This document shows, piece after piece, positions 13,209 through 60,712 of a stretch of 64,000 nucleotides of DNA. Below the pieces are notes generated by a model. That model was not told the DNA's origin. It saw only the letters and a list, made by a program, of their open reading frames with translations, and searched no databases. Numbering within the stretch: position 1 is the first letter of the stretch; each line of letters opens with the position of its first letter. The position numbers were made by a program, and so were the translations under genes. This DNA is from a virus: positions 113,838 through 177,837 of the IMG/VR virus record IMGVR_UViG_3300045974_000283; one strand, written 5' to 3'.

Positions 13209-13231
13209 GGCGGTCGACATCGTCTCAATAC

Positions 13232-13265: not shown

Positions 13266-13280
13266 GTTTCTGGGAACATC

Positions 13281-14144
13281 ATGCTCAAAGCTCGCGGCTT
13301 CACCGTCATCCAACCCAAACAAACCAAGCCACCCCTCCCCAAGAACAAGCCTCGTGTGGCGGATCCTGATGAGGACGACATCCCGCCTTGGGAGTCGTCC
13401 GCCAAGAAGCGCCCGCCCAAGCGCACCATGAGCGATGTCGTTCCCAAGCTGGCCGCGAAGAAAGCCTCTGAGCCCACTCAACGCAAAGCCCGCCGAGCTG
13501 ACCCTGTCGAAGACCTTGACCCCGATCCACCCTCACGACAAGTCCGGCCGCAACGCACAGCTCCCATTGTTCTCGCAGATCAGAGTGCTCCCCGTAGGAA
13601 TGCAGTCGCACCGCGTCCTAAGCCTGTCGTGGTCCCTGATGCTCAGTTCGACCAGGAGAGCGTGAAGGCCCTAAAGTCGCGCTTCGGCAACAAGGCCCAG
13701 ACCATTCTGGACATGCTGGATTCCGACGAGGAAACGGATGGCGCCGTGTCCCTGCTAAGCCGCTCGCTCGTGCAAACCCTCGTCGGCGTTCTGCCTATGG
13801 CGGAGAGCAACGTGCGCGAGTCCCGTGGTGCCAAGGGCATCTATCAGCTCAACCAACTCGTTTCGGGTATCCGCGAGATGATGGTGGACCTGCAAGCGCT
13901 GCGTGACAAGGGCAACCTCGGCCGCTCCGTCGTTGACCGTCATGTGCGCCCAGCCTACATGGACATGAGCGTTCAGGTCATGCAGTCGTTCACTCTAATC
14001 GAGTCCTTTGCACAATCGCGGATGAAGAGCGCCGATTACAGGGAATTCCGGGCTCATGTGGACGAAGTGAAGAAGAACCTCGCTGGATATCTCACAGCTC
14101 AATACGCAGACCTTCGAGAGGGTGTTGCGAGCTCGCTGACATGA
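13281..14144 (+). CDS. Unknown protein with a basic, proline-rich N-terminus (287 aa)
   Basis: ATG 13281 comes after GGGAACATC, 16 bp beyond the terminator. The first ~115 residues are Pro/Lys/Arg/Asp-rich and probably disordered. The rest is helical, with a repeated alternation of charged and aliphatic residues suited to a helical bundle. No active-site motif is visible. The function is unknown. Confidence 0.65.
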   Translation: MLKARGFTVIQPKQTKPPLPKNKPRVADPDEDDIPPWESSAKKRPPKRTMSDVVPKLAAKKASEPTQRKARRADPVEDLDPDPPSRQVRPQRTAPIVLADQSAPRRNAVAPRPKPVVVPDAQFDQESVKALKSRFGNKAQTILDMLDSDEETDGAVSLLSRSLVQTLVGVLPMAESNVRESRGAKGIYQLNQLVSGIREMMVDLQALRDKGNLGRSVVDRHVRPAYMDMSVQVMQSFTLIESFAQSRMKSADYREFRAHVDEVKKNLAGYLTAQYADLREGVASSLT

Positions 14145-14151
14145 CCAGCCT

Positions 14152-14158
14152 GTAAATG
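14152..14158 (+). promoter_or_regulatory. GTAAATG variant of the promoter-like motif
   Basis: GCCTGTAAATGCG lies in the 81-bp gap after the 13281 gene, 74 bp before the next ATG. It matches the GTTAATG sites at six of seven core bases and shares the GCCT left flank. The longer spacing makes it weaker. Confidence 0.25.
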
Positions 14159-14225
14159 CGCCCCTACCCCATTTTTATGCCCAAAGCCCCCTGCCGATAA
14201 ACGACCGTCTCATCCGCGAGGAGAT

Positions 14226-14921
14226 ATGAGTGACTTCCAACATCTGACGCATCTAGGCATTGATACGAGTGTCATGCCAACTCACCTGTCTCTGCCCAAG
14301 GCGTTCAACCAAGACGCTCATCATCTCTGGGTCGATGCTTACAACTCCGATCTGGTCCAGCGCGGCATCGAGGAGAAGGTCAAGTCGCCTGCTCTGTGGC
14401 AGAAGCTCGTTCGCCAGTTCCTATCCCGCTGCGAAGAAGCCGACACGTTCCCGTACACAGGACGCGCCGATGTCAACGACTCCTCTAAAGCGGCGCTACA
14501 AGCTGCCCGCAAGAGCCTCGTTGACTTCTTCCACAGCATGGGCATCTTCGAGCGCATCAAGATCCGCTCTGTGGAACGCACGGTGCGCTTCACCAGCGAC
14601 AGCTTCGTGCTGGAGGCCGTTGCCTACCTTCGAGAGATCGAAGACCCCACCTTTCAAGAGTGGATGCGGCGTCAACCAAATCCTGGCTTCCAGTCCGGTC
14701 AAGGCTGCATCCGCCGCCCGCTTGGCAAGGGCACCACGGTGGAGTTCTGCGAAGACCGCAAGCGAGGCCCCCGCCTGACCTACCGCATCCAGGGTATCTC
14801 GCCGATCCGACTCAGTGATCCGCGATACTCCCGCAACAAGCTGCAGAATCACGTCCTTGATTCGATGTGGAAACCCCTCATCGAAGCTTATCCCATCCGT
14901 TCGATCCACCATTCCTATTGA
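14226..14921 (+). CDS. Unknown basic protein (231 aa)
   Basis: ATG 14226 is preceded by GAGGAGAT, a strong classical Shine-Dalgarno site. The protein is basic and largely helical in the N-terminal 150 residues, with a beta-prone arginine-rich C-terminal third, and could bind nucleic acid. It is the first gene after an 81-bp gap and lies 11 bp before the large helicase gene, so the two may be co-expressed. I cannot assign a family. Confidence 0.66.
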   Translation: MSDFQHLTHLGIDTSVMPTHLSLPKAFNQDAHHLWVDAYNSDLVQRGIEEKVKSPALWQKLVRQFLSRCEEADTFPYTGRADVNDSSKAALQAARKSLVDFFHSMGIFERIKIRSVERTVRFTSDSFVLEAVAYLREIEDPTFQEWMRRQPNPGFQSGQGCIRRPLGKGTTVEFCEDRKRGPRLTYRIQGISPIRLSDPRYSRNKLQNHVLDSMWKPLIEAYPIRSIHHSY

Positions 14922-14932
14922 CTGGAACCCAC

Positions 14933-17900
14933 ATGACCTTCTCGCACACCTTTCACATGCGTCGCCCGGCTCCCGCCGCGCCGCGAGTTCCTCTGCGGAG
15001 CTCGGCGCTTTCGCAGCGCGCTGCCAAGCTGGTGACCGCCCGCTCGGCCTTCTCGGATGAGGAACTTCGCCCGGTCTCGAACCTGAAGATTACCCACAAG
15101 TTCCCGGCCGGTGAAGACCGTTCGGGTGCCATGAAGTTTTATCGTGGTGCCATCAAGTACGGCAAGAAGAACATCAACCACGCCCTGTGGACGCAAGCTG
15201 GATGCTGCGTGATGTTCGGTGGCGTTCAGTGGGCTCGCCCCAATGAACCGCAGATGAAGAAGAAACAGTTTCGCTACTTGATCGTCGGCGAAGAGGCAAT
15301 CATCGACTCCGCCGCTCCTGGTCTGGTGTCCGTAAAGATGGAGACCGACGGTGCTCTGGTGAAGATGCCTGCGGCCACGTTCCCCAAGTCGCATGCGCAG
15401 ATGGCTCAGTTCCTTCCGACCTTCACGGCTGCGGAAGACCCGATGCGGAACATCCCGTTCACCGAGAACTTGATCACTGACGGTCAGTTCATTCCTGCCA
15501 AGCAACTCCTGGCTCTCGCCAAGGGCTCGCTGGCCGAAGCGGCCTGCCGCGAGCTGGCTGACATCCCTGACGCTGGCATCGAGTTCCGCAGCGATGGCGC
15601 GGACTGGAATCTTCTGGTCGTGCTGAAGTTCACCCGCGCTCAAGTGTCGGCGATGACGCAGACCGACTGGCTGATGGTGCGCCCGGTTGACTTCTTCAAC
15701 ATGATGCACGAGTGGGCCAACACGCGGATGAACCGCTACGGCAAGGCGCTCGCTCTCTTCTCGATGCCGCTGTCCCGCATCGCCAAGACCCTGCCTGAGA
15801 ACGGCGATCCCCGCGTCTCGGAAGACTTGGGCATCATGATCGACGAGAAGGCCGACTACTGGTTCCTGCCGAAGAAGGCCAACAACATCACTCGTTACGA
15901 GTCAGAACATCTGGGTCAGATCAGCCGCCCCGACGGTTCGTTCTCGCTTATGCCGCTGGCCTCCGAGGGAGACGTTCGTCCGACCCAGCCTCAGTCGGGC
16001 CTCGTGCTGTGCGACTGGACCAACTACAAGATGTCCTACGTCAACGGCGAGGGACGGTTGGAGATCAAGAACACCGATCGCTGCATCGCCGCGCTTCCGC
16101 AGCATTACCTGCGAGTGCTGAACTTCCGGCTCTCGTCCGATTTTGCGATGAACGTCTGGACTCAGTCCCTGCTGATCGCTCAGAAAGTGCTGAACAAGAC
16201 GTACTCGGGTCAGGCTTACGACTTGTCGTTCAAGTTCATCGTGAGCGCCATCCTGAGCGAGATCACTTCCGATCCGGAAAACGAGGGTGGGCAACACAGC
16301 GTCGAAGACCTGAGGATCCAAGACCTCTACGTCTACAAGGACCGCATCCCCGTGCTCCAGTACTTCTGGGAAGCCATCGAAGAGATCTGCGTCTACTCGC
16401 AAACCTCGATCGAGAACCTCTACTCGAAGTACGCCTTCACCACGATCAGCCAACTGGTTGCCACCCTTCAGATTCTGACCAAGATCGCCCCGAAGCGAGC
16501 CGAACTCATGGCCGCCGACCGCGAGCGCCAAAAGGCTTATCAGGACCGCTCTGTCGATCCCAACTACAACATCGGTGAGCTCCCGCTGATCTCGACCGAT
16601 CCGGCTGGTCGTGCAATGATGCCCCACCAGACTCGGGTTGCCTCGCGTCTGCGCAACTCCCCACCGTTCGCGATGATCGCCGTGGACGCGGGTGGCGGCA
16701 AGACCATCTCGATCATCTCGGACTTCCTGAAAGAGTTCCGCGATGGCACCGTCAAGCGCGGTCTCATCATGTGCCCGCCGCACCTCGTTGCTCAGTACGT
16801 CAAGGAGTTCCTGTACCTGACGGACAGCAAGGTCAACGTCATCGCGATCAACACGTTCACCATCAAGACGCACGGCATCGAAGGTCTGCGCAAGCTCCTG
16901 CTGACGGCCCCTCCCAACAGCGTGGTCGTCACCGACTATGACCTTGCCAACTCGCGTGACAAGGTCATGAAGGTCTGCTACGGCACCCAGTCCTCGGGCG
17001 TCTACTACCTCGTGGACATGCTGCGCCAGTTCCGCTTCGACTACGTCGCGTTCGACGAAGCGCACTACCTGAAGAAGTCTGGCGCCGAACGCACTCGCTC
17101 AGTCGCTCGCTTGACGGTCGACATCCCCATCAAGCGTCTGGCTTCAGGTACGATGACGCCGAACTCGCCGATGGACATCGCCGGTCTGGCTGGTCTGTGC
17201 GATCCGACCATTTTCCCGGTGGACGACTTCGAGAAGACCTACAAGAAGGAGACGCTGCGCAAGGGTCGCAAGGTCATGCTGTATGACACCGCTGCCATTC
17301 GCGCCCGGCTGGAACAGGACATCGCCTTCGTGCAGATCAAGCGCAAGGAGTGGGCCGCATGGCTTCCGCAGCTCGTCGAGAAGGCTCACGCGGTTACGCT
17401 GTCTCCGGCTCAACAAGCTGTCTACGACACCGTGCTCCACCAAGTCATGGAGGAGATCCAGGCCAAGCTCGCCAGCGGCAACAACACCGCCCTGAACGAT
17501 CTGCTGCTCGGTGTCAAGAAGGGTGAAGACGACGAGGATGACGGCGCTCCGGCTGGCAAGAAGGAAGACGACGATGACTCGTCTCCCGACGACGGCGTGG
17601 ACATCGACTCGCTACTCAACCCGATGCTTTTCCGCCTGGAATCGTTCTCGTCGAACCCGGCCGGTGACGTGTACGGCGGAACCATACTGACGGGTGACGA
17701 CCGCTTCTCGCCGAAGGTGGGCAAGATGGTGGATATCATCCGCGACCACCTCGACGCGGGTACTCCTGGCAAGGTTCTGGTGTTCTGCAACTACAACCAG
17801 GAGGTTGACGGCATCATGGAAGCCCTCCCTGAGGACATCCGTGCCATGACGGTTCACTACTTTGCCTCAGACAAAGAAGCCTGCGCTGCTGAGTTCGAAA

Positions 17901-19513
17901 GCAATCCGAACAAGATGGTCATGATCGGCATCGAAGTTTCGATGAACACGGGCTTGAACCTCCAGTTCTGCTCGCGTCTGATCCGTATGTCTACCGTGTG
18001 GACCCCCGGCGCGCTGGAACAGGGCAACGCACGGGTTCAGCGTCCGAACCTGAAGTCGGCCGAGAACCGCGCGAACGTGTTCATCGACTGGGTCGTCTGC
18101 GACCGCACGATCGACGTCACCAAGCAAGCCTACCTGCTCACCAAGGTGATGCACATCGGCAAGTTCGACGAAGCGACCAACCCACTGTTCGCGAGTGTCA
18201 ACCCGCCGCCTCTGAACAAGATGTCTCTGGCAAACATCGCCAGCTCCAACACGGCAACAGCGGTGGACGTTCAAGACGTCTATGAGACTTACGGCGAGTT
18301 CAAGCAGGCTCAGTTCGAGGACTATCGGCAGTTCCGTGAAAAGAACAAAGCAGACGCCGGTCCTGATGGTCGCCCGCAGATGCAGCGTCTGATTCCGGGT
18401 CCCAACCCGGAAGGCTCGAAGCTGATGTACCGCATCCCCTACGTCCCCGGCCTTGACCTGTTCAAGACGGAAGACTTGGGCCTCAAGCGGTATGACCATC
18501 TGCTGCGCTTGAACGAAGCCGAGCTGGCTGACGACGGTGACGATGCTGACGACGAGAAGGACGATTCGGCTACGCTGACTGAGAACCAGAAGATGCGTGG
18601 CATGGGCGTTCACACCGAGTTCGGCGAGGGCATCATCGTCCGCGTCAACAAGAAGAAGCTCCGTGTTCAACTGACGAACGGCAGCGTCGTCACGGTTCGC
18701 AAGCTGGCAGCGTTCGTCATCACGCGCAAGCAGACCAACGCCATCGACATGCGAGCTGCGATTCTGAACCAGATCGAAGGCATCCCCAACGACGCCCCGG
18801 TCTCGGTTCCTGCTCAGGGTAAGCCAAAGGTCAAGAAGGAAGCTCCGAAGGCTGAAGAGCCCAAGGCCCGCACGGCTGCTTCGATCAAGTTCGCGCTGGA
18901 GATCGTGGTCGTCAACGACTTCTTGGGTGTTCAGTTCAAGAATGCCATCAAGAACTCGGACGCGGCTGAGTATCTGGAAGGCCGGAAGTTCGGCGCTCCT
19001 CCTGAGTTCTTCTACGCTGCAATGAAGACGCCTGACGTCATGCTCAAGCAATTCACCAAGTGGAAAGACGCGGGCTTCTCGGTGGACAAGGCTTTCAGCA
19101 CTTCCTGCCATGACCTCTACGAGAACTTCATCAAACGCAAAGCTTCCCTCGGCCACATGGTCGGTCTGGCCACGAAGGCTGAGCTGACGAACTTCGTCAC
19201 CATGAAGCTGAAGCCCCAGAACAGCAAGACGCTGCTCAAGCCTTATCCGATCGTGACTGAGGAAGAAGTTCTGTTGGCTCTGCCAGCGACGGGTCACCCG
19301 GCGTCTGTCGAAGCCATCACGAAGCGCGTTCCTGGCATGGTCTGGAAGAAGGCGGCTGCTGACTCCATCCGTCAGCGGTTCTTCACGAGCCCTGACGAAC
19401 TGGCTGACGTCATGCGCGGGTTCATCAACGACGGTGTCACCATCACCAACCTCGATGAGCTCCGCAAGAATTGGGCCGCTCTGATGACGCGTCGCAAGAA
19501 GATGAAGCTGTAA
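14933..19513 (+). CDS. Very large SNF2/SF2-family helicase-like ATPase (1526 aa)
   Basis: I chose ATG 14933, after CTGGAACCCAC, over an upstream in-frame ATG inside the previous gene. A helicase core spans about residues 570-1060: motif I DAGGGKT (GGGKT 587-591), motif II DEAH (708-711), a motif III-like ASGTMTPNSP, then the second RecA lobe with VLVFCNYNQEV and motif VI EQGNARVQRP (1029-1038). About 560 residues precede the core and about 460 follow, the latter including acidic linkers and a small SH3-like segment near 1225. Such enzymes translocate on duplex DNA using ATP. Whether it acts in replication, transcription or takeover of host DNA is not shown. An acidic insertion (about 865-900) interrupts the core. 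Confidence 0.85.
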   Translation: MTFSHTFHMRRPAPAAPRVPLRSSALSQRAAKLVTARSAFSDEELRPVSNLKITHKFPAGEDRSGAMKFYRGAIKYGKKNINHALWTQAGCCVMFGGVQWARPNEPQMKKKQFRYLIVGEEAIIDSAAPGLVSVKMETDGALVKMPAATFPKSHAQMAQFLPTFTAAEDPMRNIPFTENLITDGQFIPAKQLLALAKGSLAEAACRELADIPDAGIEFRSDGADWNLLVVLKFTRAQVSAMTQTDWLMVRPVDFFNMMHEWANTRMNRYGKALALFSMPLSRIAKTLPENGDPRVSEDLGIMIDEKADYWFLPKKANNITRYESEHLGQISRPDGSFSLMPLASEGDVRPTQPQSGLVLCDWTNYKMSYVNGEGRLEIKNTDRCIAALPQHYLRVLNFRLSSDFAMNVWTQSLLIAQKVLNKTYSGQAYDLSFKFIVSAILSEITSDPENEGGQHSVEDLRIQDLYVYKDRIPVLQYFWEAIEEICVYSQTSIENLYSKYAFTTISQLVATLQILTKIAPKRAELMAADRERQKAYQDRSVDPNYNIGELPLISTDPAGRAMMPHQTRVASRLRNSPPFAMIAVDAGGGKTISIISDFLKEFRDGTVKRGLIMCPPHLVAQYVKEFLYLTDSKVNVIAINTFTIKTHGIEGLRKLLLTAPPNSVVVTDYDLANSRDKVMKVCYGTQSSGVYYLVDMLRQFRFDYVAFDEAHYLKKSGAERTRSVARLTVDIPIKRLASGTMTPNSPMDIAGLAGLCDPTIFPVDDFEKTYKKETLRKGRKVMLYDTAAIRARLEQDIAFVQIKRKEWAAWLPQLVEKAHAVTLSPAQQAVYDTVLHQVMEEIQAKLASGNNTALNDLLLGVKKGEDDEDDGAPAGKKEDDDDSSPDDGVDIDSLLNPMLFRLESFSSNPAGDVYGGTILTGDDRFSPKVGKMVDIIRDHLDAGTPGKVLVFCNYNQEVDGIMEALPEDIRAMTVHYFASDKEACAAEFESNPNKMVMIGIEVSMNTGLNLQFCSRLIRMSTVWTPGALEQGNARVQRPNLKSAENRANVFIDWVVCDRTIDVTKQAYLLTKVMHIGKFDEATNPLFASVNPPPLNKMSLANIASSNTATAVDVQDVYETYGEFKQAQFEDYRQFREKNKADAGPDGRPQMQRLIPGPNPEGSKLMYRIPYVPGLDLFKTEDLGLKRYDHLLRLNEAELADDGDDADDEKDDSATLTENQKMRGMGVHTEFGEGIIVRVNKKKLRVQLTNGSVVTVRKLAAFVITRKQTNAIDMRAAILNQIEGIPNDAPVSVPAQGKPKVKKEAPKAEEPKARTAASIKFALEIVVVNDFLGVQFKNAIKNSDAAEYLEGRKFGAPPEFFYAAMKTPDVMLKQFTKWKDAGFSVDKAFSTSCHDLYENFIKRKASLGHMVGLATKAELTNFVTMKLKPQNSKTLLKPYPIVTEEEVLLALPATGHPASVEAITKRVPGMVWKKAAADSIRQRFFTSPDELADVMRGFINDGVTITNLDELRKNWAALMTRRKKMKL

Positions 19514-40027: not shown

Positions 40028-41605
40028 ATGCCCAGACCCAAACAGAAGCTTCTGCTAGACATCAACCAAGAAGAGATGACCAAGAAACGAGCCCGCAAGG
40101 TGGCGCTTGCTGAGGTGGAAGAAGCCGACGAGGACGACGATGAAGAGGTCGAAGTCGCGGACGAGGTCGTCGACCAGACAGGCAAACGCGTTGACCGTTC
40201 CATGGAGATCATGGGTCTGCTTCGCGAGATGGAGAAGGTCGTCCACATCAACGCCGTAAGCTTCGGCGAAGAAACGCGGATGCACACGAGCCTGCTGTGC
40301 CTCGACCTGCTCATCGGTGGAGGCATCGCTCCCGGATGGTACACCTTCTCCGGCCCCGAGCAATCGGCCAAGACGACAGCGGCCATCAGCATCTCAGCGG
40401 CATCAGCTGATCAGGACGTTGACCTGCGCGTACTTTGGGACGCTGAGAACTCTTCTGGTTCCTCCACGGACTACGTCGCTCGCATCTTCTCAACGGTGGG
40501 TTCCAAGCAATCGGTCGACAGCGTCTTCGGCGTTCGCGATGACAAGGGCGTCTACATCGTCCCACCGAAGATCTACTACCGGGATGATCCTGAGGGTGCC
40601 AAGCTGTTCTCGTGGTTGCGTGGAGTACTCACGCGCCTACCAGACAAACGCTTCGAAAACGGCGATTGGTGGTACGTCTATGACGACGCGAAAGACATCA
40701 TGAAGATGAAGGCCAAGTTGAAGGCCCTCGACTACAAGATTGATGTCAAGATGACGGCCCGCAATCCTGGACTGTGGGTGAAAGCCCCGAGTAGTAGTCT
40801 GCAGCTCCTCATCGTGTTGGACTCTCTGCCGTCCCTACTCCCGCCGTCGCAAGAAGACGACGAAGCTGACAACTCACTGGCCGTGATGGCCCGCTTCTTC
40901 TCTAAGGAACTCCCTCGCGTCAAGGGTCTGTTCCGAGCCAAACGCTGTGCGATGGTTGCCATCAATCAGCTCCGCACCAATCCGATGCAACGCTTCGGCA
41001 ACCCAGAAGGTGAGCCCGGAGGCCAAGCGCTAAAGTTCTTTTCTGACGTTCGTCTCAAGTTCTATCCGAACGCTCTGTCGGCGGCTCCCTTTGCACCCAA
41101 GGCGGCTGAGGACGGCAAGGGCAAGTTCGAGTCCGAACCTTCGGTGTGCGGAACCGGCACGGATACCTATCGCTACATCAGCGTCGACACGATCAAGAAC
41201 AAGCTGTCCACTCCGGGTCGCACGAAGACTTGGCTGCGTCTGTGGGTCAGCGACAAGGACGGTCACGGCATGGGCTACGACCCGGTCTTCGACACCTTCT
41301 ACTACCTGCACCAGACTGGTCAGGTCATGGGCAAGCGCTCTGTGATGAAGCTGAACATCCAGGGTCTGGGCGAGGCACCGAAGACGAATACGTGGGCGGA
41401 GTTCAAGCAGATGGTCATCGGCACCGCCGCTCAGAAGAAAGCTGCCTTCGCCAAGATCGGCTACAAGGCGGTTGACTTGCGACGTGGATGTCTGGGTCAA
41501 ATCCGTCGTGGTGTCGGTTCGGAACTACTGCTGGCAAACGCCAAGAAGCTCCTCGCCGCTCCCAAGGAGAAGATCGAACGCACGGCTGACAAAGACGAGG
41601 AGTGA
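40028..41605 (+). CDS. RecA/UvsX recombinase
   Basis: Residues 109-117 are the Walker A GPEQSAKTT, with LLIVLDSLPSL as Walker B, and AINQLRTNP plus GGQALKFFSDVRLKF match the L2-adjacent region of RecA. It coats single-stranded DNA and drives strand exchange, and in phages it starts recombination-dependent replication. The N-terminus has an acidic extension (about residues 28-50), and at 525 aa the protein is longer than RecA. It follows a terminator and heads the SbcD/clamp-loader/SbcC set. Confidence 0.9.
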   Translation: MPRPKQKLLLDINQEEMTKKRARKVALAEVEEADEDDDEEVEVADEVVDQTGKRVDRSMEIMGLLREMEKVVHINAVSFGEETRMHTSLLCLDLLIGGGIAPGWYTFSGPEQSAKTTAAISISAASADQDVDLRVLWDAENSSGSSTDYVARIFSTVGSKQSVDSVFGVRDDKGVYIVPPKIYYRDDPEGAKLFSWLRGVLTRLPDKRFENGDWWYVYDDAKDIMKMKAKLKALDYKIDVKMTARNPGLWVKAPSSSLQLLIVLDSLPSLLPPSQEDDEADNSLAVMARFFSKELPRVKGLFRAKRCAMVAINQLRTNPMQRFGNPEGEPGGQALKFFSDVRLKFYPNALSAAPFAPKAAEDGKGKFESEPSVCGTGTDTYRYISVDTIKNKLSTPGRTKTWLRLWVSDKDGHGMGYDPVFDTFYYLHQTGQVMGKRSVMKLNIQGLGEAPKTNTWAEFKQMVIGTAAQKKAAFAKIGYKAVDLRRGCLGQIRRGVGSELLLANAKKLLAAPKEKIERTADKDEE

Positions 41606-46604: not shown

Positions 46605-47296
46605 GTGCGAAGGTCTACCCTATCGGCATCGCCCTCGGCCTGCCGCTGATGTCGCTGATCGAGGTGATGGAAGTCGTGGTGGGCGAGCTAGGCGCACCAC
46701 TGAGGGCGGTGACCTTGGTCAACGGAGTGCGCAACGACTATGGTATCGACCCGTCCACGCTGCGCTTCTACTCACCATGGAAGTTTGTCTTCCTCAACAA
46801 CTGTGCTGACCTGCGGCGTCTGTCAATGGAAGCGGATCGTCAGGTGTTCCTGATCAGCTCGGAGCATTCGGAGCTGGACCGCTACAAGATACCTATCTAC
46901 CCGATGGGTCGGTTGAAGGCGCACGATGCTGCCTACCTAACGGCGAACGACGACCCATTGGAGCTTCATAACCCGCCGCCCTTCGACATCCTGAAGGAAG
47001 CGCTGGAAGCTTCCACGCGCAAGTCGTTCATGTCTCTGGTCAACCCCCTGTTCTACAGGGTTGTCTCGGCCGAACGAGACCGGGCTCGCAGCGAGTTCGT
47101 TGCTTTCATGTTCGGTGGCCCCACGCCTACCGGCATCCCAGACATCCTCAAGCGGGCGCTGGACAGCCCTGAGTGCGCTCAGCTGAAAACATGGGCGGCT
47201 CATGCCGTGCAGAACGGTCTCGACAACACGCTGGATGTCTACCCAGACGCCGATGAGTTCGACATTCGTTACCTGATCGCCAAACATTCAAAGTGA
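46601..47296 (+). CDS. Unknown protein (231 aa)
   Basis: ATG 46601 overlaps the SbcC stop. It is an alpha/beta protein without visible motifs. Two Pro-rich loops (PPPFDIL, GGPTPTGIPD) occur in the second half. The tight link to the recombination operon suggests a related role. No family is recognised. Confidence 0.6.
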   Translation: MSAKVYPIGIALGLPLMSLIEVMEVVVGELGAPLRAVTLVNGVRNDYGIDPSTLRFYSPWKFVFLNNCADLRRLSMEADRQVFLISSEHSELDRYKIPIYPMGRLKAHDAAYLTANDDPLELHNPPPFDILKEALEASTRKSFMSLVNPLFYRVVSAERDRARSEFVAFMFGGPTPTGIPDILKRALDSPECAQLKTWAAHAVQNGLDNTLDVYPDADEFDIRYLIAKHSK

Positions 47297-47604
47297 GCAA
47301 GATGAGCCCTCCAACACAGATTGAAAATCTCAAGTATCAGAATCCGTGGGCGATGACCCCTGCCGTGTGCAAGGTTCTGGAGAAGATGATGCTCGTCGAC
47401 AGCATGATCGAAGTCGCCGACCTGCTGAACCTCTCGCTGAAAACCGTTGAGACTCAGCTTTCGACTGCCAAGAAATTCATGGGTATCAAATCGAGGCATC
47501 GAGTGGTCTTGGCCTACTACGAATTCCACCGTCTCAAGGAGGAGGATCCGAGTCTGGTGGTCACACTTGTTAATGGGTGGCCCATACACCCTGAGGAGAA
47601 ATGA
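47293..47604 (+). CDS. LuxR/GerE-type helix-turn-helix regulator (103 aa)
   Basis: GTG 47293 overlaps the previous stop; an ATG three codons on is possible. Residues 20-80 match the LuxR-type HTH: MTPAVCKVLEKM, then EVADLLNLSLKTVETQL and KFMGIKSRHRVV. No receiver or ligand domain is present. It is probably a small DNA-binding transcription regulator of phage or host promoters. A GTTAATG motif lies in its last codons. Confidence 0.78.
   Translation: MSKMSPPTQIENLKYQNPWAMTPAVCKVLEKMMLVDSMIEVADLLNLSLKTVETQLSTAKKFMGIKSRHRVVLAYYEFHRLKEEDPSLVVTLVNGWPIHPEEK
47569..47575 (+). promoter_or_regulatory. GTTAATG promoter-like motif (3' end of the HTH gene)
   Basis: CACTTGTTAATGGGTGG starts 37 bp upstream of the ATG at 47606, inside the last codons of the LuxR-type gene. 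Confidence 0.4.
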
Positions 47605-47809: not shown

Positions 47810-48090
47810 ATGACAAGCCTCAGTTCGGCATCTTGCTCGTTGGTCTCGCGGCTCTGGTCGGGTTCCTAGTTCTGGTGGCCCCGCGAATGGAAGCTCCGAT
47901 TGCAGATCATGGCAACCCGGAATATCTGGCCGAGAGAGCGAGAGGCATGGCCGCAATCGCAGCGGCGCGCGATGCCGAAATCGAGGAGCAATGCGCTACG
48001 AACCGACGCAGCCGCCGAAGCTGTCACTACTTCTACACGCAGAAGGAGTTCCAGCAAACCCACAAACGGCAACTCGGAATATCACCGTGA
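47806..48090 (+). CDS. Small membrane-anchored protein (94 aa)
   Basis: GTG 47806 overlaps the previous stop. Residues 8-25 (GILLVGLAALVGFLVLVA) form a single membrane segment, followed by a charged, Arg/Glu-rich soluble part with Cys. It overlaps the polymerase gene by 4 bp. The function is unknown. Confidence 0.58.
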   Translation: MNDKPQFGILLVGLAALVGFLVLVAPRMEAPIADHGNPEYLAERARGMAAIAAARDAEIEEQCATNRRSRRSCHYFYTQKEFQQTHKRQLGISP

Positions 48091-50573
48091 AAATCCCTCA
48101 GCTCGAAGACCAGTTCGATCAGCTTCGCGAGATGAAATCGTTGAGTACGCTCAACGTCGCCGAAGGCTACGAGATCAACCCGCGTGTCCACCCGTTCTGG
48201 GGCAAGGCCAAGCGCAAGATGTTGTTCGTGTTGGAGAGCGTAGACGGTTCTGATATCAAGGCCGGGCGGTTGTTCGCGTCGCGCCTCGTGGGTCGCAACA
48301 ACGACTTCGAGGTCAACCGCATGATCGCCACCATGCGGAACACGCTGAAGCAGTCGTGGCATCTTTATCAAGAGTACCTCGAGCTCAACTCGCTGACGGA
48401 CGAATCAGCAGACCCCGACTTCGTGATCGGCTTCGTCAACTTCAACGCCACGAAGTACTTCCACCTAGTTGGCACACCGCGCCAGAATGCCCTCGCCAAA
48501 TGCGCCGAGCGTGTCCGCGCTGTCATTGCTGAGCTGGAACCCACAGACGTCGTCATCTTCGGCGACACGGCCACGCAGATGCTGGTCAAGGACCCGATGC
48601 CTACCGTGCTCCCGTGGAAGCGCGGATGGGTTCTTGAAACACAGATCGGTGACCACGCCTGCCGCGTCATCCCTACCCTGGACATCGAGCCGCTCTACAA
48701 TCAGTCTGGCGCGGATGCTGGCGATGACGGGGACGATGACGCTTCCGGCCCGGCTGACTTGCTCTACTTCGTCTGCCGCAACCTCTGCCACGCCTACGCA
48801 CAGAAGCACCTGCACTCGCTCGCTCACATCAAGCCCAAGGTAATCTTCGTCGACACGATGGAGAAGTTCCAGGCTCTGTACGACAAGCTGATGTCCACGC
48901 CTATGGACTTTCCGATCGGATGGGACTTGGAGACCGCCTCGCTGGAGGCGTACAAGAACGCCATCTACACGGTCCAGATCGCCTTCAGCACGACTCAGGG
49001 TTACATGATCCCGCTGCGGCACAAGGACACGCCGTTCGACGAGGAAGAACTCCAGTACATCGAGTCCTGCCTGCGGTACTTCATGTCCCGGCGCAAGCGC
49101 TCGGAACGACGCATCCTGGTCGGTGCCAACTTCCAGTTCGACATGAAGGTGATGCGCGGTCAGTGGAACATCCCGGTCATATACCACTACGTCTGGGACG
49201 TCGCGGCTGGCGAAATTCTGATTGACGAGAACATAGCGCTGTTCGACCGTATCAAGTTCCGTGTTCTGCACGAGAACGTCAAGGTCACCCTCGGCAACCT
49301 GAGGGCTCTGGCTACTCACTACGGCAACGACCTCTATTGGCGTATCGCCTTCTCGAAAGGTGAGCGGCACACGTTCGGCAGCATCAACGTGTGCGAGGAC
49401 AAGAACGCTCAGTTCTACGGCATCTTCGACGCGGTCATTGTGCTCGGCATCCGCCAGCAACAGATTGCCAAGGCTACGAAGATTCGCCTGTCGCCGAAGC
49501 AGACCTACGAGGGATACTATCAGCGCCACGTTGCCCGGCAGATGTCCAACACCTGCCACGCTACATCGTCGATGCATCAGCACGGCTCGCACGTTGAACT
49601 GAAGTTCATGGCGCATCTGGCAAGCAAGGACTCGCCGATCCTCACAGTGATGCGCGACACCGAGCGCGAGCTTATGGCGTCGCCCCTCGTGGAACAGGCT
49701 AACGACCGTCTGTGCAAGGCTGAGGGAGTTCGGGCTACGGGTCTCTTCAAGCAGAAGATCAACCTCTTCTCACTCAGCAAGGGCGACGGCCTGGAGCAAC
49801 TCTTCTTCGGTGTCATGGGTTTGAAGCCTATCGCCATCAGCGACAAGACGGGCAAGCCATCCATCGACAAAGTGTTCCTTGCCGAGTATGCTCCTCTCTA
49901 CCCAGAGGTAGGTCTAGCGCAGCAATGGCGCATCGCCCAGAAGCTGGTCAGTACCTACGTCAAGGGATGGGCCATCAAAGCGCAGAAGGCTGGCGACTCC
50001 TTTGCTGACCACTGCCTACGGGCGAGTTTCAGCTTCATGATCGTCACGGGGCGGCTCAACTCGTTCGATCCCAACCTTCAGCAAGCTCCGTCACGAGGCA
50101 AGCTGGCGAAGCTCATCAAGGAAGCGTTCCGTGCTCGCAAGGGTCGCTTCAACTTCGCGTGGGACTTCAACGCATCCGAAGTCCGGTGGGCGGCTTGTTT
50201 GTCCGGCGACACCATCCTGCGCGACGCGTTCCTTGCCGGGTTAATGCTGAGGCGGCAGCTCATCAAGGAAACTGATCCCGAGAAGCGCAAGGCCATCATC
50301 AAGCTGATCAAGACCGAAGGCGACATCCACGTTCGTAGCGTGTTTGCGTTCTTCGGCATCTGGGTTGACAAGGACCATCCGCTGCGCGCCGCTGTCAAGG
50401 CGGTCGTGTTCGGCGTCCTGTACGGCAAGGCCGCTGCCACGCTTTCCAAGAACCTGATGGGCGAAGCCCGCTATCGCCACCGCGACATCATCCTCGCGGC
50501 TAAGAAACGCGTCAAAGCCATCCAAGCGCAGATCAAAGCGCTCACCGTCACGAAAGAAGCCGAGGAAGTATGA
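48087..50573 (+). CDS. Family A DNA polymerase, N-terminal fragment (exonuclease, palm/fingers to motif B)
   Basis: I chose GTG 48087 (overlap GTGA). The 828 residues contain a UDG-like N-terminal domain (VNFNATKYF, GTPRQNALAK, VVIFGDTATQML), then a DEDDy 3'-5' exonuclease (WDLET with D280 and E282, NFQFD, and YGIFD), and then the polymerase palm: motif A WDFNASEVRW (Asp693) and motif B KAVVFGVLYG (771-780). The chain ends about 48 residues later, just after the O helix. The primer-strand, motif 6 and motif C parts are in the gene at 52694. No intein motifs are seen. Confidence 0.85.
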   Translation: MKIPQLEDQFDQLREMKSLSTLNVAEGYEINPRVHPFWGKAKRKMLFVLESVDGSDIKAGRLFASRLVGRNNDFEVNRMIATMRNTLKQSWHLYQEYLELNSLTDESADPDFVIGFVNFNATKYFHLVGTPRQNALAKCAERVRAVIAELEPTDVVIFGDTATQMLVKDPMPTVLPWKRGWVLETQIGDHACRVIPTLDIEPLYNQSGADAGDDGDDDASGPADLLYFVCRNLCHAYAQKHLHSLAHIKPKVIFVDTMEKFQALYDKLMSTPMDFPIGWDLETASLEAYKNAIYTVQIAFSTTQGYMIPLRHKDTPFDEEELQYIESCLRYFMSRRKRSERRILVGANFQFDMKVMRGQWNIPVIYHYVWDVAAGEILIDENIALFDRIKFRVLHENVKVTLGNLRALATHYGNDLYWRIAFSKGERHTFGSINVCEDKNAQFYGIFDAVIVLGIRQQQIAKATKIRLSPKQTYEGYYQRHVARQMSNTCHATSSMHQHGSHVELKFMAHLASKDSPILTVMRDTERELMASPLVEQANDRLCKAEGVRATGLFKQKINLFSLSKGDGLEQLFFGVMGLKPIAISDKTGKPSIDKVFLAEYAPLYPEVGLAQQWRIAQKLVSTYVKGWAIKAQKAGDSFADHCLRASFSFMIVTGRLNSFDPNLQQAPSRGKLAKLIKEAFRARKGRFNFAWDFNASEVRWAACLSGDTILRDAFLAGLMLRRQLIKETDPEKRKAIIKLIKTEGDIHVRSVFAFFGIWVDKDHPLRAAVKAVVFGVLYGKAAATLSKNLMGEARYRHRDIILAAKKRVKAIQAQIKALTVTKEAEEV

Positions 50574-51265
50574 AACAATTCGAATTCCACCACACCGTCA
50601 CAGGCATCTCGGTCAAGATGTTCGCCCACCTCTGCCTTCAGAGGCGGATGCGGGCGCTGGTCATCGACAACCTGACCAACGACACCGGGAAGACCGTGTC
50701 GCAGGATTTCATCACTGCTTCCGAGTTCAAGGACGAGATGAGCTATAGCGGGGCACTTGAAATGCTCGCTTACCAGAAAAGCTTCCTGGTCAGCGCGGGA
50801 GCGGTCGTGCTTCGTAGCAAGATCGAGGTAAACGCCAAGCAAGAACTAGCTGGAATGCCGATTCCGCTTGGCGACATCATGCTACCTGCGGGCATGTACC
50901 ATGAGACGCATGTGACCGTGTCAGTGCCCGACGAGAAGCTTCCGCAGTTCTTCAGCGTCGCCCGCCAGCACAGGTTCCACGTTTCTATGGACGGCCTGCA
51001 GAATGCTCACCGCCATCGCCGTCTGCGTCCGGGCCACAAACAACAGGACGCAAAGTTCTGGTTGACGGCGCGCTCACCAGATGCCAGCCTCGTGCGTCTG
51101 GAATCGCATACGAACGCCATGATGTGCGACCTCGACAGCTTCTCTATCAGCCACAAGGAGCCTCAGTACGAGCTCGTCATCCATGACAGCAATCTGCCGC
51201 ACGACGACCGTTGGATGGGCCGACCCCGTCAACTGTCTGACGATCTTTATGCGTTGGCGGCATGA
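50570..51265 (+). CDS. Unknown protein in the polymerase gap (231 aa)
   Basis: ATG 50570 overlaps the polymerase N-fragment stop by 4 bp. The protein is mixed alpha/beta with His/Arg-rich stretches (FHVSMDGLQNAHRHRR) and no homing-nuclease motif (no GIY-YIG, LAGLIDADG or HNH seen). Its tight coupling suggests it is not a recent insertion. The function is unknown. Confidence 0.6.
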   Translation: MKQFEFHHTVTGISVKMFAHLCLQRRMRALVIDNLTNDTGKTVSQDFITASEFKDEMSYSGALEMLAYQKSFLVSAGAVVLRSKIEVNAKQELAGMPIPLGDIMLPAGMYHETHVTVSVPDEKLPQFFSVARQHRFHVSMDGLQNAHRHRRLRPGHKQQDAKFWLTARSPDASLVRLESHTNAMMCDLDSFSISHKEPQYELVIHDSNLPHDDRWMGRPRQLSDDLYALAA

Positions 51266-51567
51266 TGGGAGTTCTTACTTCTTCTGCTCCGAAGGTCACG
51301 CGCATCGACTACGGAGAACTCGCCAAGACCGACCCCAAGGCCGCGCTGACCTCTTGGTTTGACTTCCACTCCCAGGATCACAACGAGGAACATATGACGG
51401 TGGCGCCGGAACGCTCGGCGCCTTTCTACGTGACCCGCCTCGCTGAGGACGGTCAATACTACGGTAGCGACCGCATCCTCACGGAAGCAGAACTCCTGAA
51501 GCGGAAGTTCACCCTCTCATGGACGCAACGTGATTACCCATGGATAAGTTTCGAGGACGAGTCATGA
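51262..51567 (+). CDS. Unknown protein in the polymerase gap (101 aa)
   Basis: ATG 51262 overlaps the previous stop. It is small, mixed in composition, with many aromatic residues in the C-terminal half (WTQRDYPWISFEDE). It ends in an ATGA overlap. No family is recognised. Confidence 0.55.
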   Translation: MMGVLTSSAPKVTRIDYGELAKTDPKAALTSWFDFHSQDHNEEHMTVAPERSAPFYVTRLAEDGQYYGSDRILTEAELLKRKFTLSWTQRDYPWISFEDES

Positions 51568-52148
51568 CGTCTGCTCCCCCGAAGTACCTGTCAGGTGGCG
51601 TCATGACGCCTATGCAAATCACCTTCTTGGCTCGCGAGCTGTTCGTGTTCAGCGAGATCGTCAAGGGCAACATGGACCGCTATCCTGAGGATGATAACGT
51701 CTGGAACGAGCCAGAGGTGTCCATCGCTGTCCGTATGTACTGGGAACCTATCGCTCGTCACGCTATAGCTCTGGCCGGGCCTGTCATCTCCAAGTCCGCC
51801 GCCGAGATGACGTCGATGGTCAACAACCATCTGGTCTTGTCCTGCGTCGCCTATGCGGTTCATCATAGAACTGTGCTCGCGCAACCACGCGGATCTCGTG
51901 TTCACCTGTCGCCTGATTCGGTGGCTGAGATCGTAGCCGGATATATGCCGTCTATTGGTTCTACTGTGGCTCACGGCAAGGCGCAGTCGCTTGGTCTTGT
52001 TGGTCGATCACTTGAGTCAATCAAGAAACTGGAGCAGCTTGAAGACTACGAGATGGACCGGGACGAACTAAGGGATATTCAGCAATCGCTGCTCGAATAT
52101 CAGTCTTGGCTGATGACTTCGGCGGTGACCGACAAGGCAGCATCATGA
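51564..52148 (+). CDS. Unknown helical protein in the polymerase gap (194 aa)
   Basis: I chose ATG 51564 in the ATGA overlap over an ATG 24 bp upstream inside the previous gene. The protein is helical, with a long C-terminal acidic helix. No motifs are visible. It overlaps the next gene by 4 bp. The function is unknown. Confidence 0.58.
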   Translation: MTSAPPKYLSGGVMTPMQITFLARELFVFSEIVKGNMDRYPEDDNVWNEPEVSIAVRMYWEPIARHAIALAGPVISKSAAEMTSMVNNHLVLSCVAYAVHHRTVLAQPRGSRVHLSPDSVAEIVAGYMPSIGSTVAHGKAQSLGLVGRSLESIKKLEQLEDYEMDRDELRDIQQSLLEYQSWLMTSAVTDKAAS

Positions 52149-52657
52149 CCCAGCGAAATCACCACGGGCCATTCTTCGAGTCGGACGGCCACCGACTGCT
52201 ACAGTTGATTCTTAGCTCTTTGAAGACTCACATAATGATGACAGGGAACTGGAGTGGCAACATCACGCAGGTCTCTCATAAATACATAAACGGATCGGCT
52301 GTTCAGATATCTATACCACAAAGTGTCCAGAACTTGGTCATCAGTCAGAAAGGAAATGAGCCGATTCTGATAATGTCGAGACAAGCCTTTGGGCTATTCA
52401 TAAAGAACCTAGGCTCAGGCAGTGACCCGTTGACCTTGGACGGCAGCTACGAGTTCACGCGGCCAGAATTCTCGTCTCAGGCTCAATCAGACCTTCCGAT
52501 TTCAATGAAAATACAAATCGGCGGCATGATGCTGGAATTCAAGGTTCTGGTTCTGCACTCCGTACCGGGCGACATACCGGAGTTCGACGATGCCCTTTCG
52601 GAGCGCGTTATTATGACTCCAACCGATCTGTACACCTGCTATCTGCCGCGCTGTTAA
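52145..52657 (+). CDS. Unknown protein, base composition unlike neighbours (170 aa)
   Basis: ATG 52145 overlaps the previous stop. The gene has visibly lower GC and different codons (many AAA, ATA, AAT) than the flanking genes, hinting at a separate origin. The protein is mixed alpha/beta with Ser/Ile-rich strands. Its stop TAA lies in the GTTAATA motif. It could be a recent acquisition in the polymerase gap. Confidence 0.6.
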   Translation: MTQRNHHGPFFESDGHRLLQLILSSLKTHIMMTGNWSGNITQVSHKYINGSAVQISIPQSVQNLVISQKGNEPILIMSRQAFGLFIKNLGSGSDPLTLDGSYEFTRPEFSSQAQSDLPISMKIQIGGMMLEFKVLVLHSVPGDIPEFDDALSERVIMTPTDLYTCYLPRC

Positions 52658-52659
52658 TA
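52653..52659 (+). promoter_or_regulatory. GTTAATA promoter-like motif overlapping a stop codon
   Basis: GCGCTGTTAATAGCACC starts 41 bp upstream of the ATG at 52694, so the polymerase C-fragment could have its own promoter. The TAA of the motif is the stop of the previous gene. Confidence 0.45.
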
Positions 52660-52693
52660 GCACCGCACAATCCGACTTAGTTCGAGGGTATTT

Positions 52694-53602
52694 ATGTCAG
52701 ACACCAAATCCAAACCTATCGCACCTGCACCGACGCGTGAATCCCTGACCAAGGAATTGGCCGCGGCTCACGCCGCACTCACCAAGGCCCTAGCCGATCA
52801 GCAAGAGGAGATGGTCACCTCCAAGATTCCCTACGAATCCCAACGCGATCCCAGCGGATGGCTCGGATTCTCATCCGAGGTCTACGACAAGTTTTTCGCG
52901 GGGTATCCTGGCGTATCCGCCCGAATCGACCTCTACAAGGAACAGATACGCGAACGCCTCTGGGTTATCTCACCTATCGGCCAGCGTCGTACCATGTACC
53001 GAATCCTGACGGGCGACCCGTCATTCATCGCGGGCGCTGAACGCCGTGCGGTCAACTCGCCGATTCAGGGTATCAGCTCGCAGGTAGGCATCACCGCCGG
53101 ATACCTGATTCAGATCGAGGTCTACGAATACTGCCTAGCCCGCAAGATTCCCGTCGAGTACACCACGATGTTCGTTCGTGCGGTTCACGACGCATCCTAC
53201 TTCGAGGAATCCTACCGCCTGATCATCCCTGCCATACACATCAATCAGCACGTTGCCACCGTCGGCGTCCATGAATACTACAAGAAGGAATTCAACTACG
53301 AGTTCCTGCTCGATCCTGAGATCGAGATGGAAGTGGGCGCGTCGGATGCCCGCGCTGATTCGTGGAATTGGGTTCTGGACGATCTGCCACCTCTGCTCAT
53401 CAAGGCGCTCGACGACCGCATCAAGGACGGATACGTCAAGGCCGAGCACCGTGCCAAGGCGCTGGAGGTCATCTTCAAGCCGTGGGTCAACAAGGCAGAA
53501 CGCCAGTATCTCCAGCGCAAGTATCCTCTGCTCCAGGTATCCGATCTGGAAGAGGAAATCTGCCTCGCCCTCGAACGCAACAACATCACACCGGAAAGGT
53601 AG
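52694..53602 (+). CDS. Family A DNA polymerase, C-terminal fragment (motif C half)
   Basis: After a ~60-residue new leader, the sequence resumes PolA from the P helix: VYDKFFAGYPGVSARID, GQRRTMYRILTGD, AERRAVNSPIQG (motif 6 Arg, Asn and Gln), and motif C VHDAS with Asp166. The normal motif C Glu is Ala here. The last ~100 residues are an extra helical extension. It should pair with the 48087 product to form an active site. The leader lacks intein features, so non-covalent assembly is likelier than splicing. Confidence 0.82.
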   Translation: MSDTKSKPIAPAPTRESLTKELAAAHAALTKALADQQEEMVTSKIPYESQRDPSGWLGFSSEVYDKFFAGYPGVSARIDLYKEQIRERLWVISPIGQRRTMYRILTGDPSFIAGAERRAVNSPIQGISSQVGITAGYLIQIEVYEYCLARKIPVEYTTMFVRAVHDASYFEESYRLIIPAIHINQHVATVGVHEYYKKEFNYEFLLDPEIEMEVGASDARADSWNWVLDDLPPLLIKALDDRIKDGYVKAEHRAKALEVIFKPWVNKAERQYLQRKYPLLQVSDLEEEICLALERNNITPER

Positions 53603-53605
53603 AAA

Positions 53606-53809
53606 ATGGATCCAATCTTGAAATGCCCGCAATGCGACAGCGAACGGATCGCCGTTACCGCTGAGCAGATGTTCATGATAAACACCCTTGAACACTACTG
53701 TCACAGCGTGAAGACGCAAGACGACAACGCGAAGGTCGAATGCCTTGACTGTCATTGGGCAGGAAAACGCGGCCGACTGGAAGCCCTCAACGCACCAAAG
53801 AAAGGCTGA
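53606..53809 (+). CDS. Small zinc-ribbon protein (67 aa)
   Basis: ATG 53606 lies 3 bp after the polymerase stop, with a purine-rich AAAGGTAGAAA site. LKCPQCDSE and VECLDCHWAG give two CxxC pairs, a zinc ribbon. The function is unknown. Confidence 0.63.
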   Translation: MDPILKCPQCDSERIAVTAEQMFMINTLEHYCHSVKTQDDNAKVECLDCHWAGKRGRLEALNAPKKG

Positions 53810-53812
53810 ACC

Positions 53813-54004
53813 ATGTTCCAAGTCCTCTTCATCACGACTCAGTTTCCTCAATCATCCACATTCCAGGCCCATGAGATACCGCCGAACGTACACACAGTGA
53901 TCGGCTCGTTTCCAACGAGGGACGAGGCGATCATCGCCGCAGAACGTGCTAACGCATCTACCACCGGAATCAGACTCACCGACGCCGTCTGCCTCTTCAA
54001 TTAA
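53813..54004 (+). CDS. Small unknown protein (63 aa)
   Basis: ATG 53813 lies 3 bp after the previous stop. It is a compact alpha/beta protein with a beta strand VLFITT and a terminal helix. No motif is recognised. Confidence 0.5.
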   Translation: MFQVLFITTQFPQSSTFQAHEIPPNVHTVIGSFPTRDEAIIAAERANASTTGIRLTDAVCLFN

Positions 54005-59125: not shown

Positions 59126-59670
59126 ACCCTTCTCCCATTCTTCTGGCGTTCTACCTGAGGAAGACCCTTCCGTACGAGCTTCCCAACGTGCTGACCGATG
59201 CCGGGCTGCAACGCTACGAATTCGACCATTCGGGCGCTCACGCCTCCGGGTCCGGCTACGTCTTGCACAATCAGCAGTTCTACGTCTGGAACGCCGAGCA
59301 AATCTTCCAGAGCGCCTCTCTGCAGATAGGTGAGCGCGTCCGCCCGTTCGGTGCCGTTAATGTGCAGTACGACCAGATGGATGTTTCGCTGCTCGGCTTC
59401 TACACGGCTGAGGCGGACATCCTGGTGGCGACCAACATCGCCGACTACGACCTGCGCGTGGAGGAGCTTGCTGACCGCAAGAACCAGACTCTTCCGTGGG
59501 TGTACCGCTTCCGCAAGACTGACAAAGCCTCCTTCAGTCTCAACTCGCGGCGCATCTGTTCGCGATGGGCGTCGTGGCGAGCCAACGCATTACCTGAGGC
59601 CAGTCGGCGCTTCCAGGTTCTTGAATCGAAACTTCTGACAGGCGCAGCCGATGATCTCTCACCTGATTGA
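59122..59670 (+). CDS. Unknown protein (182 aa)
   Basis: I chose ATG 59122 in a 4-bp overlap. It is a mixed alpha/beta protein with an Arg-rich C-terminal part. The 3' end overlaps the primase gene by 20 bp. No motif is recognised. Confidence 0.56.
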   Translation: MNPSPILLAFYLRKTLPYELPNVLTDAGLQRYEFDHSGAHASGSGYVLHNQQFYVWNAEQIFQSASLQIGERVRPFGAVNVQYDQMDVSLLGFYTAEADILVATNIADYDLRVEELADRKNQTLPWVYRFRKTDKASFSLNSRRICSRWASWRANALPEASRRFQVLESKLLTGAADDLSPD

Positions 59671-60712
59671 CCCTGTCGCCCGCGCTGAGCATGTGAAGGC
59701 TGAGATCGCGGGCCTGCCGGGCAAGAAGCGCACGGGTTCGCGCTTCACCATGATCCAGTGTCCGTTCCACGCCGACGACACGCCTTCCGGCCAGCTCAAG
59801 CACGATGTCAACAAGCCGAACAGCGTTGGATACTACGTCTGCCGTGGATGCGGCCAGTCCATCGTGTGGAACATCTTCGCTGACCGCTTGGGTCTGCAAC
59901 CCTTCCAGCGCTCCGACTCCCCAGACGTTCCCGAGATCAACCAAGACTACCTGAAGCAAGCCCTGCTCGGCGAGGACGAAGATGAGGATGGTATGAAAGA
60001 CGCTGAGTACACACTCAGCCGCCTCAACCAAGAAGCCGCCGACAAGATGGGTCTTCCTGACCTGTACTGGCGCACCTTCTCGTTCCAGTTCCTTACGTCC
60101 ATCGGCGCTCGCATGTTCACGTCGCGTGGCTTCGTCGAGGACACGGGCGAGTTCGGCGAAGTGAACTACATTTTTCTTCCGATCTATGTGTCTGGCACCC
60201 TGCGCGGCTACATCAGGGCGAGACCCTTCAAGCCGAAGGACCCAAGCGTTCCCACATACATGAATGCTCGTGGTGGCTGGAGCCGTACCTACGGTCTGTT
60301 CCCCTACGACGCCGCTGTCGAAGTGATGCGGACAAACGACCTGAAGACGATGGTCTTGGTCGAAGGCCCCCGTGATGCCCTGCGTCTTCTGTCTGTCGGC
60401 ATCCCAGCGCTCGCCATCCTAGGCACTCACTCGTGGACGCCGAACAAGGTGCATCTGCTGGAGAAGACCGGAGCTGACCGGATGATCCTGTGTATGGATG
60501 CCGACCGGGCGGGCCGTCAGGCTACCAAACTTTTATACACGGGGCGCAAGGAAGAGAAGTCCATTGCGCCTGCGTTGAAGAACGTATTTCAAACTTCAAC
60601 CTTCGAGTTGAAGGACTACCGCAAGAACCCCCAGAACGGCAACGAGAAAATAGATCCGGCCTCTGCACCCAAGCGAGCGCTGGCTGATCTGAAATCCATC
60701 ATCGAGTCTTAA
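59651..60712 (+). CDS. DNA primase (DnaG-like: zinc ribbon plus Toprim)
   Basis: ATG 59651 overlaps the previous gene by 20 bp. The N-terminus has CPFHADDTPSG and CRGCGQS, the primase CHCC-like zinc domain. Later VLVEGPRDALRLL and LCMDADRAGRQATK are the Toprim Glu and Asp-x-Asp motifs. At 353 aa it lacks a separate helicase domain. It would lay RNA primers for the replication fork together with the split polymerase. Confidence 0.87.
   Translation: MISHLIDPVARAEHVKAEIAGLPGKKRTGSRFTMIQCPFHADDTPSGQLKHDVNKPNSVGYYVCRGCGQSIVWNIFADRLGLQPFQRSDSPDVPEINQDYLKQALLGEDEDEDGMKDAEYTLSRLNQEAADKMGLPDLYWRTFSFQFLTSIGARMFTSRGFVEDTGEFGEVNYIFLPIYVSGTLRGYIRARPFKPKDPSVPTYMNARGGWSRTYGLFPYDAAVEVMRTNDLKTMVLVEGPRDALRLLSVGIPALAILGTHSWTPNKVHLLEKTGADRMILCMDADRAGRQATKLLYTGRKEEKSIAPALKNVFQTSTFELKDYRKNPQNGNEKIDPASAPKRALADLKSIIES

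Follow-up and report, generated by a model that had tools for sequence, protein, structure and literature searches.

A putative two-chain family A DNA polymerase in a relative of jumbo phages

Replicative DNA polymerases divided between two genes have been described from phages and from archaea. In the OM43 phages MEP401 and MEP402 the family A polymerase is split, and the authors considered an intron, according to the accessible text of their paper (PMC10580990). For the family B polymerase of phage MIJ3, likewise split, the available part of the publication (PMC6892783) describes intein blocks together with an HNH nuclease, and the accessible sections of a further study (PMC4104785) suggest an erratic intein loss for Methanobacteriales PolB3 and intein trans-splicing for Nanoarchaeum PolB. 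In jumbo phages, a split DNA polymerase III alpha is present as two stand-alone proteins that were proposed to rebuild one enzyme (PMC7824862, as far as the available text goes). Here we describe a family A polymerase encoded in two pieces, the N piece and the C piece, with four genes between them, on a stretch of 64,000 nucleotides of virus DNA that we call the window (positions 113,838 to 177,837 of the IMG/VR record IMGVR_UViG_3300045974_000283). Very probably this is a jumbo-phage relative's replicative polymerase, which consists of two polypeptides that form one enzyme. Our literature search, with most subscription papers outside its scope, returned no family A polymerase split at the same site, and a word search of two papers on the diversity of phage PolA (PMC11348598, PMC6302109) gave, in their accessible text, no statement on split polymerase genes.

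The two polymerase pieces

All catalytic motifs of the polymerase are retained and are shared out between two intact open reading frames (ORFs), the first containing the exonuclease and motifs A and B, the second containing motifs 6 and C (Table 1). This is the arrangement that the initial annotation had read from the sequence, and the motif positions were confirmed, as was the placement of the cut just after the O helix: the N piece stops soon after this helix, and the rest of the palm is found in the C piece. In Pfam DNA_pol_A, the N piece matches positions 25-231 of 381 (expectation value E 2.5e-26) and the C piece positions 238-317 (E 4e-8, at 32.9 bits slightly under the cut-off of 34.3 bits). 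Against a profile of length 1014 made from five whole relatives, the N piece reaches as far as position 757, while the C piece matches positions 748-983 (E 2.5e-53), so that the two together make up one whole polymerase. Since Pfam, PHROGs and the family profile agree, the identification is far beyond chance; the features of family A membership (Pfam DNA_pol_A, motifs A, B and C, the catalytic aspartates) are found only in both pieces jointly. The N piece further gave a Pfam match to the 3'-5' exonuclease (E 2e-4, under its cut-off) and a weak UDG-like match (E 0.014). Its predicted model (predicted local distance difference test, pLDDT, 83; predicted template modelling score, pTM, 0.78) resembles the Motura polymerase (TMq 0.77), and a single long helix following the O helix terminates the chain.

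A PolA profile search of the complete record of 177,837 bases returned exactly these two pieces, and profile searches found no second PolA in it and neither PolB nor PolIII alpha. A complete polymerase elsewhere, which had been named beforehand as the finding that would speak against a split enzyme, was thus not found in the record. In the split relatives G002, G003 and G004, too, PolA is represented by exactly two pieces and no other match, and one whole relative (G001) has a single PolA match in its record.

The reading frame of the N piece is open from 47991 to 50573. An upstream ATG at 47991 would lengthen the protein by 32 amino acids, but translation more likely begins at GTG 48087, because the closest relative aligns from residue 1 of the GTG product and because this GTG shares 4 bases with the stop of the preceding ORF. 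The C piece starts 36 bases after the preceding ORF, with the ribosome-site-like sequence GAGGGT upstream. As a side observation, the usual motif C of Pol I is HDE, whereas the VHDA of the window has no second acidic residue; the relatives shown likewise have VHDA or VHDS.

Family A polymerases require both catalytic aspartates. In the window, the first chain would supply the exonuclease, the thumb, the fingers through the O helix and one half of the palm; what remains of palm and fingers, including the second catalytic aspartate, would come from the second chain. Neither piece would be a polymerase alone, so non-covalent assembly into one enzyme is most likely. The working form would most likely be a heterodimer with the catalytic aspartates on separate chains, and the N chain by itself could retain exonuclease activity. 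We infer the assembly of the chains, their activity and the pairing of their helices; the proposal of the initial annotation that the polymerase works as two chains is supported at the level of sequence, most strongly by six more contigs with the same cut, in three of which the pieces adjoin directly, and by the constraint on one split pair.

Relatives, the seam and its history

The nearest polymerases of named phages are those of Achromobacter phage Motura, the Burkholderia phages BcepSauron and BcepSaruman, and PaBG, all of them jumbo phages; these polymerases belong to the same family and have about 30-36% identity to the N piece. In contrast to that of the window, their polymerase is contained in one gene, and the annotated records of Motura, BcepSauron and PaBG give it as a single coding sequence. 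In the other named records in which the region was opened, the polymerase is whole at this seam; those of Sen-NF and MEP401 are cut elsewhere. The nearest relative of the N piece, L155 (46% identity over residues 1-796), lies on an IMG/VR contig of 238.5 kb; its polymerase is whole and is the sole PolA match of its record. The relatives were found by alignment queries; single-protein scans of viral contigs with either piece found none, and one scan of genome contigs gave two distant matches only. Altogether 157 loci were fetched, many of them representing the same contig twice, and the reading-frame scans omitted L153 and L154.

Reading related phages at this region, as had been proposed, revealed the same cut in six further IMG/VR contigs (L054, L055, L161, L166, L126 and L124), with the N piece seen in five of them. 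The C piece of L054 begins one base past the stop of the N piece, that of L055 overlaps this stop with its start, and the stop and start of L161 share the sequence TGATG, such that there is no gene between the pieces in any of the three. Two small genes separate the pieces in L166 and one gene of 337 amino acids those in L126; in L124, a KilA-N gene precedes the C piece, and the N piece is off the contig. The motifs are retained in all split cases, L124 being judged on its C piece alone. For the exonuclease of L126, the pattern scan matched a chance site, and a DTEGASL stretch is visible in the alignment. No homing-nuclease families were found among the intervening genes scanned in the window and in the split relatives, in line with the initial annotation, which had seen none in the four genes of the window. 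Because the intervening genes vary among the viruses, the cut appears to be independent of any particular insert, and the seam seems to collect cargo genes after the cut like any other gene boundary. Several C pieces are preceded by a stop-start overlap or by a ribosome-site-like sequence, and where genes overlap, translation looks coupled.

We define the seam as the stretch that separates the end of the O helix from the conserved helix after it, and we compared its length in 41 chosen rows, a set that excludes near-duplicates, distant families, two fragments at contig ends (L137 and L150) and polymerases whose cut lies elsewhere. Among the whole rows, the seam is exactly 21 residues long in 14 and spans 55-104 residues in 20. 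The split rows have tails of 35-48 residues (six rows with an N piece) and heads of 42-64 residues (seven rows); in the window, 48 residues follow the O helix in the N piece, and 64 precede the next conserved helix in the C piece. BcepSauron bears the uncut hairpin, whereas Motura and PaBG are without it. AlphaFold2 models the complete BcepSauron enzyme (pLDDT 89.6, pTM 0.88) with insertion helices at 746-773 and 779-801 following the O helix (728-741), and the comparison of this model with Bst Pol I (4dsj; Z 32.8, root-mean-square deviation 4.3, 570 residues) indicates the Pol I large-fragment fold. Hairpin helix 2 of BcepSaruman and BcepSauron is matched by the head of the L126 C piece from residue 2 onwards. 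Judging by the predicted structure, the cut is in the loop of a helix-loop-helix insertion in the fingers. Each chain would then retain one helix of the hairpin, and these helices probably re-pair and help to hold the chains together.

How often did this happen? A tree of the 41 rows, built from both parts without the hairpin columns, contains five changes between whole and split, and the well-supported branches alone force five. The split/whole label clusters little on this tree (26 of 500 shuffles were as low). The window pairs with whole L155 (support 100), L054 and L055 stand with whole L051, L166 stands with whole L128, L011 and L012, and L161 is apart. A single clade of all seven split rows was rejected at a cost of 662 log units (approximately unbiased test, p-AU 1e-58), and so was a clade of the window, L124 and L126 (64 log units, p-AU 3e-4, with L124 filled in 24% of columns); the groups for these constrained-tree tests were chosen after earlier trees had been seen. 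Contrary to the joint trees, a tree of the C part alone groups the window, L124 and L126 together, which makes the number of splits inside the clade of the window uncertain. The sequences suggest about five independent splits, and four may suffice. Re-fusion could account for part of the pattern; we read the five changes as splits because re-fusing across foreign genes seems unlikely.

Constraint on the two pieces can be followed in the pair L054 and L055, whose proteins are identical to 0.76 (N piece) and 0.74 (C piece), with 0.90 in the N tail and 0.60 in the C head. At codon positions 1, 2 and 3, the differences are 0.22, 0.14 and 0.63 in the N piece and 0.25, 0.13 and 0.59 in the C piece; dN/dS (non-synonymous over synonymous change) is not expressible as a ratio here, as silent sites are saturated. 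By this pattern, both pieces are under purifying selection, if the split predates the divergence of the two. A further-reaching proposal is that several jumbo-phage lineages independently cut the polymerase at the same finger hairpin, and that the two-chain form is stable with the hairpin halves as a built-in joining device; we give this proposal even chances.

Weighing the alternatives

Several observations weigh against a two-chain polymerase held together at the hairpin. The record is possibly a fragment, no end repeats having been found, and the C piece of the window sits on a long branch in the tree. Furthermore, the window is without a close split relative, so that constraint after the split is measurable solely in L054 and L055. 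The terminal helix of the N piece is predicted with moderate confidence only, and a crude test of amphipathic periodicity was negative in 10 of 11 tail and head segments and positive for the L126 tail alone (56 of 2000 shuffles). For the pairing of the helices we therefore rely on the structure predicted for the uncut BcepSauron enzyme.

The possible fragmentation of the record and the long branch would also suit a decaying pseudogene, with the DNA copied by a host polymerase or by one outside this record. However, both frames are open (828 and 302 codons) and retain the catalytic residues, the same cut recurs in the six other contigs, and one split pair is constrained in both pieces as well as in the N tail, which leaves decay very improbable. 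That the split is an error of sequencing or assembly might be suspected of any metagenomic contig, but 2.1 kb with four overlapping ORFs are beyond any indel error and contigs of other samples carry the same seam; we consider such an error practically negligible. A subsequent joining of the halves by a self- or trans-splicing intron or by a split intein has a precedent in the intein-bearing split PolB of MIJ3 (PMC6892783, accessible part), and intein-like or HNH insertions do occur elsewhere in the polymerase family (L031, L128). Yet neither piece has a Pfam intein or Hint match, as the initial annotation had held on inspection, although the same library does detect one in L031, and the 48 and 64 residues at the cut leave little room for intein halves. 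The stretch between the pieces consists of four tightly packed ORFs, and L054, L055 and L161 have nothing between theirs. A search of 47900-53900 with Rfam gave no match at E<=1, a weak test, given that L084, L126, L164 and L166 were also blank at the gathering score. We therefore regard joining as very improbable.

A different question is whether the enzyme is real in two chains while the hairpin ends have no role in assembly, the palm and finger core holding the chains together and the hairpin being just a loop that tolerates cuts. The negative amphipathicity test is in keeping with this, as is the long seam of the 20 unsplit whole rows. On the other hand, split cases from several lineages retain the extra ends, whereas the whole sisters of the window's clade, L155 and L130, have none, and the N tail of L054 and L055 is better conserved than their N piece overall. 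We consider a mere tolerant loop unlikely, if by no means far-fetched.

To divide a replicative polymerase between its catalytic aspartates is a drastic step, and one that nonetheless seems to have been taken repeatedly at the same loop. If several lineages indeed made this cut independently and the hairpin halves join the chains, then the hairpin of whole relatives would be a pre-adapted natural split site, or else the scar of old splits that were re-fused. The split would uncouple the amounts of the exonuclease-bearing and the palm-bearing chain, and it would allow other genes to settle in the middle of a replicase. If the splitting did recur at one loop, it would point to a natural split site within a polymerase fold that has been studied thoroughly, of use in building two-part polymerases, and the whole, hairpin-bearing and split relatives would allow the steps of protein fission to be compared. 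For annotation, one half of a functional replicase may be hidden behind a C piece that is called hypothetical.

Surrounding genes, other cuts and known split polymerases

Table 1. Features of the split polymerase and of the genes between its pieces (positions in the window)
Feature	Position	Strand	Remark
N piece, family A DNA polymerase (828 aa, amino acids): UDG-like domain, 3'-5' exonuclease, thumb, motif A, O helix	48087..50573	+	
Exonuclease motif I IGWDLETASL (D280, E282)	48915..48944	+	invariant alignment columns
Motif A DFNASEVR at residue 693, first catalytic aspartate	50163..50186	+	D693, E698, R700 invariant in 26 rows
Motif B / O helix RAAVKAVVFGVLY at residue 767	50385..50423	+	helix 765-778 in predicted model
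C-terminal helix of N piece, residues 783-820, counterpart of hairpin helix 1 in whole relatives	50433..50546	+	model, pLDDT ~62-74 by block
Intervening gene 1, 231 aa	50570..51265	+	PADLOC AbiEi profile
Intervening gene 2, 101 aa, no family	51262..51567	+	
Intervening gene 3, 202 aa, no family	51540..52148	+	
Intervening gene 4, no family; 170 aa from ATG 52145 or 183 aa from TTG 52106	52145..52657	+	
C piece, family A DNA polymerase (302 aa): remaining fingers and palm, motifs 6 and C	52694..53602	+	
N-terminal extension of C piece, ~52 residues, missing in hairpin-less relatives, likely hairpin helix 2	52694..52849	+	
Motif 6 RRAVNSPIQG	53042..53071	+	R117, R118, N121, Q125 invariant in alignments
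Motif C VHDA, second catalytic aspartate	53183..53194	+	V164, H165, D166 invariant in alignments

The coordinates of the four intervening ORFs bear out the overlapping arrangement that had been noted initially, with successive overlaps of 4, 28 and 4 bases. Most of the length of gene 1 is matched by two PADLOC profiles of AbiEi, the AbiE antitoxin (E 2.6e-17 and 8.8e-15); it has no Pfam, PHROG or NCBIfam match, and no partner toxin was recognised adjoining it. A search for homologues of gene 1 gave one weak phage match (E 1e-3) in an unannotated record of 635 kb, and the same search was empty for genes 3 and 4. A comparison of genes 1, 3 and 4 with six related records found no homologue, which is weak evidence as this search was run without a positive control.

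Relatives of the window keep the polymerase, a small gene and the primase clustered, and in L155 and L157 helicase and primase closely flank the polymerase. In the window, the homologous primase is found at 59639-60709, 6 kb downstream, and the helicase at 14861-19510, about 28 kb upstream, so that its replication cluster is much enlarged. Upstream of the polymerase, a small protein at 47293-47604 weakly resembles helix-turn-helix domains of the LuxR/GerE or sigma-70 region 4 type.

Other members of the family are interrupted at other places. In L164 (4409-8705), the cut in the polymerase falls after motif A and before the O helix; the pieces are separated by a 374-amino-acid DUF7487 gene whose C part is nuclease-like by eye. 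Between motifs A and B, L128 (5031-8786) has an in-frame insertion with HNH_3 and AP2, and L161 has one of about 185 amino acids at the same place. Near the PNLQQ motif, the polymerases of L084, L085, L092 and L008 are cut; the 261-amino-acid ORF between the pieces of L084 is HNH nuclease-like by eye, and Rfam had no match in L084. In L031 (7145-8653), the N part of the polymerase ends in an intein/Hint-like sequence between exonuclease and polymerase (Pfam E 8e-5, under the cut-off). Beyond the polymerase, the alignments of the helicase homologue of L155 (902-6835) and of the L161 homologue (12369-16589) of window 40028-41602, the RecA of Motura, fall into two and three pieces, respectively, separated by about 1-2 kb; this suggests inteins, introns or further split genes.

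Among the systems described so far, the archaeal ones resemble the window in having a replicative polymerase in two genes, but Methanobacteriales PolB3 and Nanoarchaeum PolB belong to family B, and an intein origin has been proposed for them, whereas the window is without a trace of an intein. The polymerase of MIJ3, like that of the window, is a jumbo-phage polymerase in two genes, in its case with one gene between them; it is of family B, however, and neither its intein blocks nor its HNH nuclease is seen in the window. The split polymerase III alpha of jumbo phages differs in polymerase family and in cut, and there it accompanies a family B polymerase. MEP401 (L010) comes closest, being a phage PolA with the exonuclease and N part in one gene, the C part in another and a function-unassigned gene between them. 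Its cut, however, precedes motif A, the second gene starting with MILNADAKALEW and holding the O helix, whereas the window is cut after this helix; in the family profile, the alignment begins at position 716, where the O helix lies, for the second gene of MEP401 and at 748 for the C piece of the window. A split PolA thus is already known from MEP401 at another site, and what is new here is the cut at this hairpin and its recurrence at one loop.

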